Assembly: GCF_034263275.1 (NCBI RefSeq)
Contig: NZ_CP139559.1
Location: forward strand, 248,001-312,000
Length of the DNA: 64,000 nucleotides
Origin: Mucilaginibacter sp. cycad4
GTDB lineage: Bacteria > Bacteroidota > Bacteroidia > Sphingobacteriales > Sphingobacteriaceae
Direction of reading: 5' to 3'
Positions 14,319-46,260 of the stretch are shown here, piece by piece. Below the pieces are notes generated by a model. The model did no database searches, was not told the origin of the DNA, and saw only the letters and a program-made list of their open reading frames with translations. The position numbers and the translations under genes are program-made. The stretch's first letter is position 1, and each line of letters starts with the position of its first letter.

Positions 14319-14385
14319 GACAATTTGAATGTTACATATATAATAACTGGTTAATTGTAAAAATATTGTGGGAGTGGAAAAGGGT

Positions 14386-14646
14386 TCATGGTTCATGGAT
14401 CGTGGTTCATGGTTTGGTGGTGGTTTGTGGTTAGTTCGTAGATCATGGTTTACGGTTGGATTAGCGGAAAAAAAGGGGGCATAGCTTTGATGATGACAAT
14501 GCGCGGGAACAAAAATCCGGTTAATCCATTAATCCGTTTAATCCAGGTTCAGACTTCCCTAATGCGGCCCGCGCACGGGCTCATCGTTAAATAACGGCTA
14601 TTATCCAGCTATGAACCATGATCTATGAACTATCAACCATGAACCA
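14386..14646. repeat. Word-type hairpin tract (GGTTCATG / CATGAACC)
   Basis: The left side repeats GGTTCATGGTTCATGGATCG and variants to about 14455. The right side (14609-14646) carries the complementary words (ATGAACCATGATCTATGAAC, CAACCATGAACC). The arms could pair across about 150 bases. It ends just upstream of the valS promoter. Apart from this tract and the possible small ORF at 14232, the 14166-14707 interval holds no gene. Confidence 0.7.
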
Positions 14647-14707: not shown

Positions 14708-17443
14708 ATGAGTATTGCTAAAACATATATCCCTAAAGAAACCGAAGAAAAATGGTACAGTTACTGGTTACAGCACGGCTTTTTTAAGTCGGTGCCCGAC
14801 GAGCGTGAGCCTTACACTATAGTGATTCCGCCGCCAAATGTTACCGGGGTTTTGCACATGGGGCACATGCTTAACAATACTATTCAGGATGTGCTGGTTC
14901 GCCGCGCCCGTATGAAAGGCAAAAATGCCTGCTGGGTCCCCGGTACCGACCACGCCAGTATTGCCACCGAAGCCAAAGTTGTTGCCATGCTTAAAGAACG
15001 CGGCATCAGCAAAAAAGACCTTACCCGCGAAGAGTTTTTAACCTACGCCTGGGAGTGGAAGGAAAAATACGGCGGCATTATCCTGGAACAGCTTAAAAAA
15101 TTAGGCGCCTCATGCGATTGGGACCGTACCAGGTTTACCATGGACGAGAGCCTTTCGGAAGCGGTTATTGATACGTTTATCCACTTGTATAAAAAAGGGC
15201 TGATCTACCGCGGTATCCGCATGATCAACTGGGACCCGCAGGGCAAAACCGCGGTAAGTGATGAGGAAGTTATTCGTAAAGAAGTTAACCAGAAGCTCTA
15301 TTATATCCGCTATGCTGTTAAGTCGGAAAGTCTGGAAAGTCAGGAAAGTCCGGAAGTCGGAAAGTCGGAAAGTCCGGAAGTTGAAAAGTCAGAAAGTAAC
15401 GAACTTTCGGACTCACGGACTTCCGGACTTGCGGACTTCTTAACCATCGCTACTACCCGCCCGGAAACCATTATGGCTGATGCTGCTATTTGTATCAACC
15501 CTAACGACGAGCGTTATCTGCACCTGCATGGTAAAAAGGTATACATCCCGCTGATCAACCGTGAGATCCCGGTGATACTGGATAACTACGTAACCATGGA
15601 TTTTGGTACCGGCTGTTTGAAAGTTACTCCTGCGCATGATTTGAATGACTATGAACTGGGCCAGCGCCATAACCTGCCCGTTATCGATATCCTGAATGAT
15701 GATGGTACGCTGAATGAAAAAGCACAGATATTGGTTGGTGAAGACCGTTTTGCTGCCCGTAAAAAGATAGCAGTACTGCTGGAAGAAGCCGGCGTACTGG
15801 AAAAAGTTGAAGAATATAAATCGCAGGTTGGTTTCAGTGAACGTACCAACGCGGTTATTGAGCCAAAACTATCTATGCAGTGGTTTTGCAAAATGGGCGA
15901 GATGGCTAAACCTGCTTTGGATTATGTATTGAACGGCGAGATCAAGCTGATCCCCGAAAAGTTTGTGAACACTTACCGCCATTGGATGGAGAATGTAAGG
16001 GACTGGAATATCAGCCGCCAGTTATGGTGGGGACAGCAGATCCCGGCATGGTACCTGCCAAACGGCGATTTTGTGATTGCTAAGAACAGGGAAGAGGCTT
16101 TTGAAGAAGCAAAAAATCTCAAATCTCAAATCTCAGATCTCAAATCTGAAGATTTAAGACAAGACGAAGACGTGGTTGATACCTGGTTTTCATCATGGTT
16201 ATGGCCAATTTCGGTATTTGATGGCTTTAAAGACCCTAACAATGCCGATATCAACTATTACTACCCAACTAACGACCTGGTTACCGCGCCGGAGATCTTG
16301 TTTTTCTGGGTTGCCAGGATGATCATGGCCGGTCATGAGTTCAGGGGCGAAGTACCGTTCCGGAACGTGTACCTAACCGGTATCGTAAGGGATAAACAGG
16401 GCCGCAAAATGTCAAAATCATTAGGCAACTCGCCCGATCCGCTTGACCTGATCGAGACTTACGGCGCCGATGGCGTACGTGTAGGTATGCTGCTATGCTC
16501 ACCTGCCGGTAACGACTTAATGTTTGATGAAAGCTACTGCAAACAGGGCAGCGGTTTTGCCAACAAAGTATGGAACGCGTTTAAACTGGTAAAAGGCTGG
16601 GAGGTTGATGAAAACCTGGCTAATCCTAACGCCGTAGCCATTGAATGGTTTGGCAGCAGGTTTAACCAGGCCCTGACCGAAATTGAAGCCAACTTTGCCC
16701 AGTACCGTTTATCAGAGGCCCTGATGGATACCTATAAGCTGGTATGGGATGATTTTTGCGCATGGTACCTGGAAATGATCAAGCCTGCTTATCAGCACCC
16801 TATTGATCAGGCTACTTATACGGCTACTATTCAATTCTTCGGGAATATTTTGAAGGTATTGCACCCTTTTATGCCTTTTCTTACCGAAGAATTATGGCAT
16901 GATGAGCTGTTTGGTGAACGTACTGAAACAGACTGCTGTATTGTAGCGCAATTGCCCGCTATTGGGGAAATAAATTCACGCTTATTGAATGAAACAGAGC
17001 TTGTTAAGGATGTTGTAACCAACATCAGGAATACCCGCAAAACAAAACAAATTTCTGACAAAGAACCGCTTGAGTTGTTTGTTAAATCAAATTCAGGGAT
17101 CAATTACGGCCAGTACGAAGCTATCATTGCAAGGCTTGCCAACATCAGTAAGTTTGAATCCGTAGCCGATAAAATTGAAGGGGCTATTAATTTCTTAGCC
17201 TCAACAGATGAGTTTTATATTCCTTTCAGCGAAGAAATTGACCCGGTTGCCGAGTGTGCGCGATTAAAAAAAGAGCAGGAATACCTGCTGGGTTTCCTGA
17301 AATCGGTTAATGCCAAATTGGGTAACGAACGCTTTATGGCCAATGCAAAACCCGAAGTTATTGAGGTGGAGCAAAAGAAAAAGGCCGATGCCGAAGCCAA
17401 ATTAACGATCATTGAAGAAAACTTAGCAGCTTTGGCTTGCTAA
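14708..17443 (+). CDS. valS: Valyl-tRNA synthetase with two repeat-derived insertions
   Basis: Class I ValRS of 911 residues from the ATG at 14708 (MSIAKTYIPKETEEKWYSYW). An upstream in-frame ATG at 14618 would add 30 unconserved residues read from a repeat and is rejected. Signatures are HMGH at 50-53 (HIGH), the editing-domain TTRPETIMAD, VDTWFSSWLWP, KMSKS at 567-571, and a C-terminal coiled coil. Two inserts are unusual. Residues about 205-243 (DNA 15320-15436) are coded by tandem GGAAAGTC-like words just before the editing domain. Residues about 469-485 (DNA 16111-16160) are coded by AAATCTC words. Both keep the frame. The gene is essential, so the inserts are presumably tolerated loops. 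Confidence 0.95.
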   Translation: MSIAKTYIPKETEEKWYSYWLQHGFFKSVPDEREPYTIVIPPPNVTGVLHMGHMLNNTIQDVLVRRARMKGKNACWVPGTDHASIATEAKVVAMLKERGISKKDLTREEFLTYAWEWKEKYGGIILEQLKKLGASCDWDRTRFTMDESLSEAVIDTFIHLYKKGLIYRGIRMINWDPQGKTAVSDEEVIRKEVNQKLYYIRYAVKSESLESQESPEVGKSESPEVEKSESNELSDSRTSGLADFLTIATTRPETIMADAAICINPNDERYLHLHGKKVYIPLINREIPVILDNYVTMDFGTGCLKVTPAHDLNDYELGQRHNLPVIDILNDDGTLNEKAQILVGEDRFAARKKIAVLLEEAGVLEKVEEYKSQVGFSERTNAVIEPKLSMQWFCKMGEMAKPALDYVLNGEIKLIPEKFVNTYRHWMENVRDWNISRQLWWGQQIPAWYLPNGDFVIAKNREEAFEEAKNLKSQISDLKSEDLRQDEDVVDTWFSSWLWPISVFDGFKDPNNADINYYYPTNDLVTAPEILFFWVARMIMAGHEFRGEVPFRNVYLTGIVRDKQGRKMSKSLGNSPDPLDLIETYGADGVRVGMLLCSPAGNDLMFDESYCKQGSGFANKVWNAFKLVKGWEVDENLANPNAVAIEWFGSRFNQALTEIEANFAQYRLSEALMDTYKLVWDDFCAWYLEMIKPAYQHPIDQATYTATIQFFGNILKVLHPFMPFLTEELWHDELFGERTETDCCIVAQLPAIGEINSRLLNETELVKDVVTNIRNTRKTKQISDKEPLELFVKSNSGINYGQYEAIIARLANISKFESVADKIEGAINFLASTDEFYIPFSEEIDPVAECARLKKEQEYLLGFLKSVNAKLGNERFMANAKPEVIEVEQKKKADAEAKLTIIEENLAALAC
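15320..15436. repeat. In-frame word-repeat tract inside valS (GGAAAGTC words, then inverted)
   Basis: About eight units of GTCNGGAAA run from 15320 to about 15398, followed by the inverse words ACTTTCGGACT, CGGACTTCCGGACTTGCGGA to 15436, so the tract can fold. It codes for a Ser/Glu-rich segment (KSESLESQESPEVGKSES...). Similar words recur upstream of the ABC transporter at 40743-40790. Confidence 0.85.
16111..16160. repeat. Second in-frame word-repeat tract inside valS (AAATCTC words)
   Basis: The tandem words AAATCTCAAATCTCAAATCTC are followed by AGATCTCAAATCTGAAGATTT. The stretch codes for KNLKSQISDLKSEDL. It lies just before VVDTWFSSWLWP in the catalytic domain. Confidence 0.7.
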
Positions 17444-34999: not shown

Positions 35000-35160
35000 A
35001 AGGTTAAAGGCGAAAGGTTAAAGGTGAAAGGTCAAGCACTTTCATGCGTTCCTTTTCCTTTAACCTTTCGTCATTGTTTATTTTATCTGGGTAAAGGTTT
35101 CTGGTATCAAGCGACCGGCTTCTGCCTTTCGCCTTTTACCTTTAACCTTTCGCCTTAAAA
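35000..35160. repeat. Word-type hairpin tract (GGTTAAAGGCGAAA / CTTTCGCCTTTAACC)
   Basis: The left arm 35000-35032 (AGGTTAAAGGCGAAAGGTTA...), a middle copy of the complementary words near 35051-35071 (CCTTTTCCTTTAACCTTTCG), and the right arm 35122-35156 (CTTTCGCCTTTTACCTTTAA...). It fills almost the whole 168-bp gap between yajC and ybbR. Confidence 0.8.
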
Positions 35161-40742: not shown

Positions 40743-40790
40743 TATGTCAGGGCTTTCCGACTTTCGGACTTTCCCGGCTTCCGGACTATA
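40743..40790. repeat. Word-type tract (GACTTTCGGACTTTCC words)
   Basis: TCAGGGCTTTCCGACTTTCG, then GACTTTCCCGGCTTCCGGAC. The same words, inverted, make the insertion in valS at 15320-15436. Confidence 0.7.
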
Positions 40791-40797
40791 ATAATAA

Positions 40798-42585
40798 ATG
40801 AAAGACCTCGCATACCTTAATAAATTCTTTTACAAATACCGCTGGCGGCTTATTCCGGGCGTGCTGTTTGTAATTATATCCAATGTTTTTGGTGTGCTGC
40901 CCGCGCAGGTTATCCGCGTAGCTTTTGATCTGGTTACCGAAAACATCGGCGCCTATCAGTTGTTTTCTGGTTTCGACAGGCAGAGTTTCATTTATGATAT
41001 TTTCGGTACCAGCCTTTTCCTGTTTGGTACGCTGGTATTGGTGCTGGCATTGCTGCGGGGCTTGTTCCTGTTTTTTATGAGGCAAACCATTATCCTCATG
41101 TCGCGCCATATCGAGTACGATTTAAAAAACGAGATCTATAACCACTACCAGGAACTTTCCCTTGCCTTTTACCGCCGCCACAATACCGGAGATTTAATGA
41201 ACCGCGTAACCGAGGATGTAAGCCGTGTACGCATGTACCTTGGGCCGGGTATCATGTACTCCATCAATACCGTGGTATTGTTTGTGATGGTGATATATGC
41301 CATGCTTACTGTAAATGTACAGCTGGCCGTTTTTTCGGTACTGCCATTGCCTATTCTGGCAGGTGTTATTTACTATGTAAACAATATTATCAATCACCGC
41401 AGCGAGATGATCCAGGAGCGCCTGTCCGGCTTATCCAGCTTTGTGCAGGAAAATTTTTCGGGCATCAGGGTGATCAAATCATATGTGCGCGAAGGCTTTG
41501 TGCGCGAAAACTTTGCAAAGGAGAGTGAGGACTATAAAGTACACTCAATGGAACTGGCCAAAGTACAGGCCCTGTTTTTCCCGATCATGCTGTTGCTGGT
41601 AGGCCTGAGTAACGTAATAACCATGTACGTTGGCGGGGTGGAAGTAATAAAAGGCAACATTACCCCGGGTAATATTGCGGAGTTTATTGTTTACCTCAAT
41701 ATGCTTTCGTTCCCGGTTATTTCGCTGGGCTGGGTAACCTCATTGGTGCAACGCGCCGCAGCTTCGCAAAAACGCATTAACGAATTTTTGCATGAAAAGC
41801 CTGAGATCATCTCGCCGGTTGCAGAAAATCACCATGTTGAGGGATTGATCAGGTTTGATGAGGTATCATTCATTTATCCTGATACGGGCATCCAGGCATT
41901 AAAAAATGTTTCCTTTACGGTTGAGCCTGGGCAGATGTTGGCTATTATAGGCCGTACAGGTTCGGGTAAGTCAACCATTGCCAACCTGGTAATGCGCATG
42001 TACGATACCACAGGCGGAGAGATCACGGTTGACAACCGTTCGATAAGATCACTTGGTCTTGAAAACTACCGCTCGCAGATAGGTTTTGTACCGCAGGAGG
42101 TGTTCCTGTTTTCGGATACCATAGCCAATAACATTGCTTTTAGTGCCGATGTACTGGACATGCCGGTTGTTGAGCAGGCCGCTAAAGATGCCGCAGTATA
42201 CAATAACATTATTGAACTGGAAGAAGGTTTTACAACCCTCATTGGCGAACGCGGCGTTACCTTATCGGGCGGTCAAAAACAGCGTGTATCCATTGCACGC
42301 GCCATATTCAAACATCCGCAGGTTTTGATCTTTGACGATTGCCTTTCGGCAGTTGATACCCGCACGGAAGAAGAGATTTTGAATAACCTTGGCCGGGTAA
42401 TGCAGGATAAAACGAGCATCATCATAGCCCACCGCATTTCCACCATAAAAAATGCCGATAAGATCCTGGTGATGGATAACGGCGAAATAGTTGAGCAGGG
42501 CAACCACGAATACCTGATGCAGCTTAAAGGTACTTACTTTGAGCTTTACGAAAAACAACTGCTGGAAGAAGAGCAGGATGCATAA
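40798..42585 (+). CDS. ABC exporter, fused permease/ATPase (MdlB/MsbA-like)
   Basis: The 595 residues have six membrane helices (about 15-300, ABC_membrane type 1) and an ATPase domain. Walker A is GRTGSGKST (385-393), the signature LSGGQ (489-493), Walker B VLIFDDCLSAVD, and the H-loop IAHRIST. It is a half-transporter working as a dimer; the family exports lipids, drugs or peptides. No partner half-transporter is adjacent. The stop codon is followed after one base by a GC-rich two-stem repeat. Confidence 0.93.
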   Translation: MKDLAYLNKFFYKYRWRLIPGVLFVIISNVFGVLPAQVIRVAFDLVTENIGAYQLFSGFDRQSFIYDIFGTSLFLFGTLVLVLALLRGLFLFFMRQTIILMSRHIEYDLKNEIYNHYQELSLAFYRRHNTGDLMNRVTEDVSRVRMYLGPGIMYSINTVVLFVMVIYAMLTVNVQLAVFSVLPLPILAGVIYYVNNIINHRSEMIQERLSGLSSFVQENFSGIRVIKSYVREGFVRENFAKESEDYKVHSMELAKVQALFFPIMLLLVGLSNVITMYVGGVEVIKGNITPGNIAEFIVYLNMLSFPVISLGWVTSLVQRAAASQKRINEFLHEKPEIISPVAENHHVEGLIRFDEVSFIYPDTGIQALKNVSFTVEPGQMLAIIGRTGSGKSTIANLVMRMYDTTGGEITVDNRSIRSLGLENYRSQIGFVPQEVFLFSDTIANNIAFSADVLDMPVVEQAAKDAAVYNNIIELEEGFTTLIGERGVTLSGGQKQRVSIARAIFKHPQVLIFDDCLSAVDTRTEEEILNNLGRVMQDKTSIIIAHRISTIKNADKILVMDNGEIVEQGNHEYLMQLKGTYFELYEKQLLEEEQDA

Positions 42586-46085: not shown

Positions 46086-46260
46086 GAAAGAGCCAAGAGG
46101 TCAAGATTCAAGAGACAAGTGTTTAGAGTCAAGACGACAAGATATAAGAGCCAGGAAATGAGTTCCAATCATTCCTGGTTTTTTTATGTCCTGATTCTTG
46201 AGCCTTAACTTCTCGCTTCTGTTTTTGTCTTGCCTCCTGATTCTTGATTTCTTGACTCTA
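46086..46260. repeat. Word-type hairpin tract (GTCAAGATTCAAGA / TTCTTGATTTCTTGAC)
   Basis: The left side repeats CAAGA and AGAGTCAAGA-type words to about 46150. An inner stem CCAGGAA / TTCCTGG follows, and the right side carries the complementary TTCTTGA, TCTTG and CTTGACTC words to 46260. It fills the gap between the convergent ychF and AraC genes. Confidence 0.75.

Follow-up and report, generated by a model that had tools for sequence, protein, structure and literature searches.

How does a repeat of the kind found between genes come to lie in frame within an essential enzyme? The question is raised by valS, the gene for valyl-tRNA synthetase (ValRS), in a window of 64,000 nucleotides (the whole stretch of DNA analysed here) from Mucilaginibacter sp. 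cycad4, whose genome (G000) is a single contig of 7.1 Mb. The initial annotation of this window described one insertion of repeated words, followed by their inverse, just before the editing domain of the enzyme, and likened it to the palindromic elements of Rickettsia. The observation proves to be larger than first stated, extending to a second site in valS, to lysA, folC and mnmE, and to congeners.

An in-frame word hairpin in valS

The open reading frame, on the forward (+) strand like the other features mapped in the window, comprises 941 codons from the first ATG at 14618 to a stop codon ending at 17443, and is identified as valyl-tRNA synthetase by NF004349 and TIGR00422, both above their cut-offs. 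Judging by homology, a start at 14708 is more likely than one at the first ATG, and valS is given here as 14708-17443. The insert occupies 15320-15436, exactly where a word-repeat insertion of about 39 residues had been proposed. It comprises 39 codons (117 nt), from AAG (K) at 15320 to GAC (D) at 15434-15436, and is positioned between LYYIRYAV and FLTIATTRPET, at the turn preceding the editing domain. The direct arm (15320-15397) consists of imperfect tandem 8-nt words, AAGTCGGA/AAGTCCGG, encoding the peptide KSESLESQESPEVGKSESPEVEKSES, while the inverse arm (15399-15439) consists of the complementary words ACGGACTT/CCGGACTT.

The description of the tract as words followed by their inverse is borne out by TRF, which reports period 8 in both arms (9.5 copies at 15320-15397 and 5 copies at 15399-15438), and by the longest inverted pair within the insert, whose 37-nt arms are 81% complementary. 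As RNA, positions 15318-15442 fold with -50.2 kcal/mol (z -4.6), a value equalled by none of 200 shuffles. Codon shuffles that preserve the amino acids give p 0.003 for the period-7/8 signal and p 0.005 for the inverse complement, the floors of 300 and 200 shuffles, respectively. None of 200 random 75-nt coding windows reached p<=0.01 for either periodicity or inverse complement, a lenient control in that such windows are not variable loops. Three words read in frame give an 8-residue peptide period, KSESPEVG; because the underlying period of 8 nt is no multiple of 3, the insert is a repeat of DNA and not of peptide.

Typical ValRS proteins had been said to join the flanking parts directly, and a short turn is indeed found here in Thermus and in all nine Sphingobacterium sequences (9/9). 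The phmmer alignment to the Thermus thermophilus enzyme (1gax) reaches residue 205 before the insert and restarts at 208, so that two residues fill its position. The segment encoded by the insert is hydrophilic, in keeping with the suggestion that it is likely disordered. A structure model predicted from 25 aligned sequences is poor (mean pLDDT 58.9, pTM 0.46) and deserves little weight; in it, residues 208-241 are predicted with pLDDT <50 and no secondary structure, flanked by predicted strands at 188-204 and 244-249. The peptide is most likely a tolerated disordered loop with no function of its own.

Two further arrays accompany the insert. A second in-frame array, at 16114-16147, repeats the 7-nt word AAATCTC within NLKSQISDLKSED in direct orientation only. 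Congeners carry other words at this second site, where 12 of 29 ValRS genes are periodic and complementary arms at p<=0.01 occur in none (0/29). Upstream of valS, an intergenic array of the word GGTTCAT at 14375-14451 forms one arm of a hairpin whose inverse arm, ATGAACC, lies at 14611-14646 and overlaps the first ATG (14618). This upstream hairpin is of the same general class as the insert but belongs to a different word family.

Word arrays across the host genome

Searching G000 with the valS insert returned 33 matches at E<=0.001, with both of the insert's own strands counted and some places matched on both strands. These are partial word matches of 69-92% identity, and no consensus shared over a whole element of 100-150 nt was found among them. 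In 400-kb stretches of four genomes (G000, G013, G027 and G026), the commonest TRF period is 7 in every case, and period 8 ranks second, alone or in a tie, in three of the four. Arrays of period 7 or 8 lie mostly outside ORF calls (60/72 over the four stretches). Many intergenic arrays consist of two word arms, the second inverse to the first, around a spacer, and numerous families of 7- and 8-nt words are represented. They tend to follow genes closely: among the 37 intergenic regions that hold an array and border a stop codon, the array starts within 10 nt of the stop in 23, against 26% under random placement. All three frames on one strand are open in 6 of 12 arrays within ORFs, a set too small, and with too many spurious ORFs in it, to bear a claim that in-ORF arrays favour stop-free word families, compared with 15 of 59 intergenic arrays and a baseline of 198 of 1180 random intergenic 36-mers. 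Two array-bearing ORFs, at G000 394078 and G027 505048, are probable artefacts, since by eye the start codon lies inside an upstream array.

The words of the valS insert are here called type A. Clusters of at least four type-A words were found at 10 of 18 further places scanned in G000; three of these are inside genes, identified by NCBIfam as lysA (TIGR01048), folC (TIGR01499) and mnmE (TIGR00450), and the rest are at gene ends or between genes. The reading frame is uninterrupted through the arrays of valS, lysA, folC and mnmE. Thus the claim that an intergenic-type repeat lies in frame in an essential gene stands: the ORF is open, and related copies occur in the intergenic DNA of the same genome. 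The valS insert belongs to a class of hairpins that is spread through the genome and has the form (7-8-nt word)n, spacer, (inverse word)n.

Same site, different words

ValRS was aligned from 29 of 30 congeneric loci, the host gene (L009) included and L032 dropped for lack of an intact ORF, and word types were assigned to loops and tree rows by eye. At the valS site, type A words occur in L009, L013, L016 and L018; AAGTCTGA-like words in L010, L011, L014, L026 and L027, with short and degenerate versions in L028 and L029, whose loops carry label B; GTATCAA words in L015, L020, L021 and L022; and GAGCGAAG-like words in L019 and, weakly, in L023 and L025, whose E labels are weak (periodicity p 0.14 and 0.007, respectively, neither with complementary arms). 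Periodicity was tested in loops of at least 36 nt, of which the 29 genes have 21; 18 of the 21 are periodic at p<=0.01 in the codon-shuffle test and 11 have complementary arms at p<=0.01. RNA folding of eight hand-picked valS loops gave z <= -3.2 in seven. The loop at this site ranges from 6 to 50 residues and has no invariant residue.

A ValRS tree built by a quick method, with the two valS loop regions left out of the sequences, has 28 rows (L030 was also dropped). Over its 18 word-bearing rows, among which L012, labelled E on the tree, is not counted, the word type changes at least nine times, a minimum that drops to six when A and B, which are similar, are treated as one type. Counting 'none' as a further state gives a minimum of 15 changes on the 28 rows; by the labels assigned by eye, a word loop is absent in 9 of the 28. 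Near relatives keep their array, L013 and L016 showing point differences and L028 and L029 being identical. Type A words resemble those of type B, and an alignment by eye is possible between the right arms of the G000 and G031 valS loops; part of the word turnover may therefore be divergence in place.

Sampling of named loci, in which the best relatives of the host ValRS belong to Mucilaginibacter, widens the distribution. ValRS was parsed from 75 of 80 (five were unparsed, or eight under stricter patterns), yielding 34 loops of at least 36 nt, of which 25 are periodic at p<=0.01. By genus, periodic loops number 13 of 15 in Mucilaginibacter (20 loci parsed), 8 of 12 in Pedobacter (27 parsed), 1 of 2 in Daejeonella and 3 of 5 among loci without a genus name. 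This named set and the set of genomes with G handles are not independent, because some genomes are in both (for example L230 and L015). The insert is not strain-specific, and a single insertion event is not supported: word arrays occupy this position in 13 of the 20 Mucilaginibacter loci parsed and in 8 of the 27 from Pedobacter, and in the alignment of sister species the words differ between lineages. As separate genomes carry arrays at the valS site, an assembly artefact is unlikely. A distant ValRS, L303, has at the same site an inverted repeat that is not made of words, CCCTCTCC-AAA-GGAGAGGG. Conservation of the same residues across the family, the mark of an ancient domain, was not seen. 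The site is shared and the residues are not, and an ancient conserved domain is rejected on the grounds that no loop residue is invariant and that Sphingobacterium and Thermus have a short turn.

A family-wide sample yielded type-A words in 26 of its 121 genomes and 9 of its 25 genera, the host's genus included; as DNA, they occur in 32 of 41 congeneric genomes. When the direct arm was used as a 27-residue peptide query against the same 41 genomes, only the host gene matched (1/41); a peptide search, unlike a DNA word search, misses the array family. Overall, the array site in valS persists while its words turn over between species.

Arrays inside lysA, folC and mnmE

These three genes were chosen for their type-A words in G000. 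Periodic loops occur in 19 of 30 FolC, 17 of 28 LysA and 4 of 29 MnmE sequences, and complementary arms at p<=0.01 in 4 of 30, 0 of 28 and 3 of 29, respectively, one of the MnmE cases being a short wordless loop. Words differ between species in all three proteins, and the LysA loops of L172 and L194 each combine two unrelated words.

MnmE is the clearest case of array gain. The element of G000 comprises an arm, a spacer of 21 residues and an inverse arm; it is missing from the sisters G013, G031, G017 and G027, where a short linker is found, while G022, G025 and G018 carry other word loops at the same point. By eye, the loops of G000, G022, G025 and G018 replace the ancestral linker and are not inserted within it. 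A search for the 63-nt mnmE spacer in G000 and 36 relatives found only the spacer itself in G000 and, elsewhere, a best match of E 0.0075. Simple copy-and-paste of a fixed element is rejected for mnmE on account of this unique spacer.

Word sharing and intergenic turnover

Sharing of 10-mers between loops and intergenic DNA was measured on 400-kb samples. The type-A loops of G000 share more 10-mers with the intergenic DNA of G000 than does any of 200 codon shuffles (valS1 40 against a shuffle maximum of 21, folC 58 against 43, lysA 46 against 25 and mnmE 68 against 57). The second valS site of G000 has no excess (25, shuffle maximum 48), and among the loops of G013, G027 and G026 only LysA of G013 beats its own shuffles, narrowly, at 18 vs 17. 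Nor is the sharing genome-specific: the valS1 and mnmE loops of G000 share 37 and 60 10-mers with G013 intergenic DNA, compared with 40 and 68 with their own, and the type-A loops valS1 of G026 and folC of G027 match G000 at 32 and 52 but their own samples at only 3 and 2. Across species, the word count of a genome is weakly tied to its own valS loop (type A p 0.025, type D p 0.088), the high counts behind these values being possibly lower bounds, since at most 21 or 22 candidate regions were scored per genome. Words are dispersed within genomes, but a genome's choice of word can be predicted only loosely.

Among the genes of G000, 164 adjacent pairs are kept in one or more of three relatives; for 22 of these, an array of period 6-9 lies between the genes in at least one genome. 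Different genomes carry different words at the orthologous places of pairs 7, 80, 123 and 133, and the same word at those of pairs 6, 42, 46 and 191. Word switching in valS looks like this turnover between genes.

Comparison with known repeat systems

The parallel with Rickettsia drawn in the initial annotation is apt in that the insert is palindromic, in frame and accompanied by intergenic copies. In the passages cited, Rickettsia and Wolbachia palindromic elements (RPE and WPE) are palindromic repeats of ~100-150 bp, found between genes and in frame in genes for conserved proteins (PMC3767692, PMC2229807), where they take exposed positions and orthologues have insertions at one place (PMC3767692, PMC2229807); RPE families are there given as repeats of 105-146 bp. 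Like RPEs, the arrays described here are in frame (in valS, lysA, folC and mnmE), have related copies in the intergenic DNA of the host genome, and can form stem-loops, as the valS insert and many valS loops do. Unlike RPEs, they are not palindromic in LysA (complementary arms in 0/28), at the second valS site (0/29) or in most FolC loops (such arms in 4/30). Further differences from RPEs as those passages describe them are that only words of 7-8 nt recur, that the one spacer examined is unique, that array length and word vary, and that words at one site differ between congeners. Where different elements occupy one site, the cited text leaves open, for some RPEs, whether this reflects a hot spot or divergence of an old insertion (PMC3767692). 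The hosts of RPE and WPE are intracellular alphaproteobacteria, while the arrays here occur in Mucilaginibacter, Pedobacter and relatives. The valS insert works like RPE/WPE, but without a consensus shared over the element.

Heptamer direct repeats, TAACTGA among them, are described in the portion cited from Beggiatoaceae, Cyanobacteria and five Bacteroidetes (PMC4679880), as tandem 7-nt words that are mostly intergenic, with a few sets inside ORFs (PMC4679880); in Bacteroidetes, other heptamer arrays lie near them (PMC4679880). The present arrays resemble them, as so described, in being tandem, short-worded and mostly intergenic, with some in ORFs. According to the same portion, TAACTGA is one fixed word, located mostly just upstream of start codons and having a single indirect repeat (PMC4679880); by that account it differs from the arrays here, which draw on many words, possess inverse arms, favour stop codons and switch words at orthologous sites. 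REPs are presented in the cited section as short, high-copy palindromes, 20-40 bp long and mostly tagged GTAG or CGTC, for which functions in termination and mRNA stability have been proposed (PMC3733652); the present arrays, made of tandem 7-8-nt words, differ in anatomy from REPs so presented. Bacterial MITEs (ERIC, Correia and RUP) are described in the passages cited as small non-autonomous repeats that have terminal inverted repeats and a target duplication and in some cases are fused in frame to genes (PMC2229807). In the arrays here, neither fixed terminal inverted repeats nor target duplication was seen by eye in the mnmE comparison or at the orthologous intergenic pairs. We found no report of word arrays inside Sphingobacteriaceae genes in the open-access literature, judged mostly by title and abstract.

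Possible origins of the arrays

We give about an even chance to an explanation in which arrays are homogenised by slippage and arm-to-arm copying, reseeded by template switching and tolerated at permissive turns. Slippage would homogenise the words within an arm, and hairpin-templated copying would hold the two arms complementary, while template switching with arrays elsewhere in the genome, which word sharing and turnover suggest, would import new words. Selection would retain variants whose length fits the reading frame (modulo 3) and which contain no stop codon, and permissive turns in a few housekeeping genes would host the arrays, the valS turn before the editing domain being one. Since neither 7 nor 8 is divisible by 3, successive words pass through every reading frame, with the result that a stop-free word family should stay open however it is entered. 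The expected outcome would be arrays with uniform words at each locus and matching arms, whose words recur at other loci and can be replaced with time. The weak complementarity in LysA and FolC argues against arm-to-arm copying as a general rule in those genes.

A mobile palindromic element resembling RPEs, recurrently inserting whole copies at permissive hot spots and leaving words as the degenerate arms of several families, seems unlikely, although several observations suit it. MnmE offers clean presence and absence with arm-spacer-arm anatomy, and the word loops of G022, G025 and G018 at one point look independent. Whole elements with their spacer differ, by eye, at the orthologous intergenic pairs 7 and 133, and the inverted repeat of L303 at the valS site is not made of words. 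However, the mnmE spacer is single-copy in G000, so no body travels with the arms there, and its uniqueness disfavours the movement of a whole element. The mnmE element also replaces the ancestral linker rather than lying inside it, and neither constant termini nor target duplication could be seen by eye in the comparison of filled and empty mnmE sites or at the intergenic pairs.

Slippage and quasi-palindrome correction acting purely in situ, with no exchange between loci, comes next and is improbable as a complete account. It is challenged by the recurrence of one genome's words at many unlinked loci and their absence from other genomes: type D has no match in G000 and at least 35 in G022, and type A has 33 in G000 and none in G004. 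The valS and mnmE arrays of G000 are both type A, even though sister genomes lack the mnmE element. The excess of shared 10-mers over codon shuffles also points away from purely local slippage, though for G000 only. Isolated slippage is disfavoured because words are shared between loci in this way, yet it agrees with the arrays common to near relatives (L013 and L016 with point differences, L028 and L029 identical), with the words kept at intergenic pairs 6, 42, 46 and 191, and with a level of word sharing that differs little between a sister genome and a genome's own DNA. Finally, the idea that the loop is an ancient ValRS insertion with a function, kept by selection on the protein (for instance as a flexible editing-domain linker), in which repeats are secondary, is very hard to credit: position and hydrophilic character are common to most loops in the genus, but the loop varies from 6 to 50 residues with no invariant residue, 9 of 28 tree rows have no word loop, the period is not divisible by 3, and unrelated enzymes carry similar arrays.

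Beyond the combination of slippage, arm-to-arm copying and template switching, we put forward as a long shot that an active process in Sphingobacteriaceae might write word hairpins throughout the genome, at gene ends and permissive turns of essential proteins, overwriting the words of a fixed site with those in use elsewhere in the same genome; the writer could be template switching between arrays or, most boldly and by analogy with telomerase, a polymerase that copies a 7-8-nt template again and again. If so, protein loops would be rewritten by a DNA-level process that is blind to reading frame.

Significance

Coding repeats in conserved genes are already known from Rickettsia, Wolbachia and some MITEs, as the cited passages describe (PMC2229807). 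Here, different words are found at shared sites of several enzymes in many species, which makes the choice between hot spot and divergence testable with close strains, and named isolates are among these species. For annotators, a caution follows that such protein loops are repeat-derived. In the conserved enzymes that carry these arrays, repeat DNA with a period not divisible by 3 can give rise to new peptide that is probably disordered.

Word arrays and other repeats between genes

Word arrays in the window do not occur only after stop codons, as is seen at 40753–40787, where type-A words (the word family of the valS insert) stand alone in inverse orientation. This stretch ends some 10 nt upstream of an ORF (40798–42585) that reads like an ABC transporter. 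Arrays of the words AAGGTGA (35000–35032) and AAGAGTC (46088–46150) lie outside ORF calls. Upstream of valS there is an intergenic hairpin of the words GGTTCAT and ATGAACC (14375–14451 and 14611–14646), a family other than that of the valS insert. The first ATG of the listed valS ORF (14618) falls within this hairpin, and the true start is therefore probably 14708.

Other repeats occupy orthologous intergenic places in adjacent gene pairs of this genome (G000) that are conserved in relatives. At pairs 85, 126 and 170, further repeat families (CATTGCGAGG..., CGAACTTGTTTCGGGATCTCA...) are found in one genome at the place that word hairpins occupy in a relative; at pair 112 a third kind of repeat, GTAGAGACGCA..., is present in both genomes.

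Variation within coding loops

Two unrelated words stand side by side in a single loop in relatives' LysA (loci L172 and L194) and ValRS (L246), as is expected if the arms were replaced singly, one after another. The ValRS of another relative (locus L030, genome G017) shares 97% identity with the window protein over residues 1–206 and 90% over 243–911; an unrelated stretch precedes DEDVVDTWF, and the word loop is absent there. In this protein, a distant version may have replaced part of the editing-domain region. The ValRS of a distant Bacteroidetes genome (locus L303) contains, at the same turn as the valS insert, the inverted repeat CCCTCTCC-AAA-GGAGAGGG, which resembles intergenic sequence near position 166481 of G000 (pair 86). 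This likeness suggests that, besides word arrays, the valS turn may also take up other intergenic palindromes.
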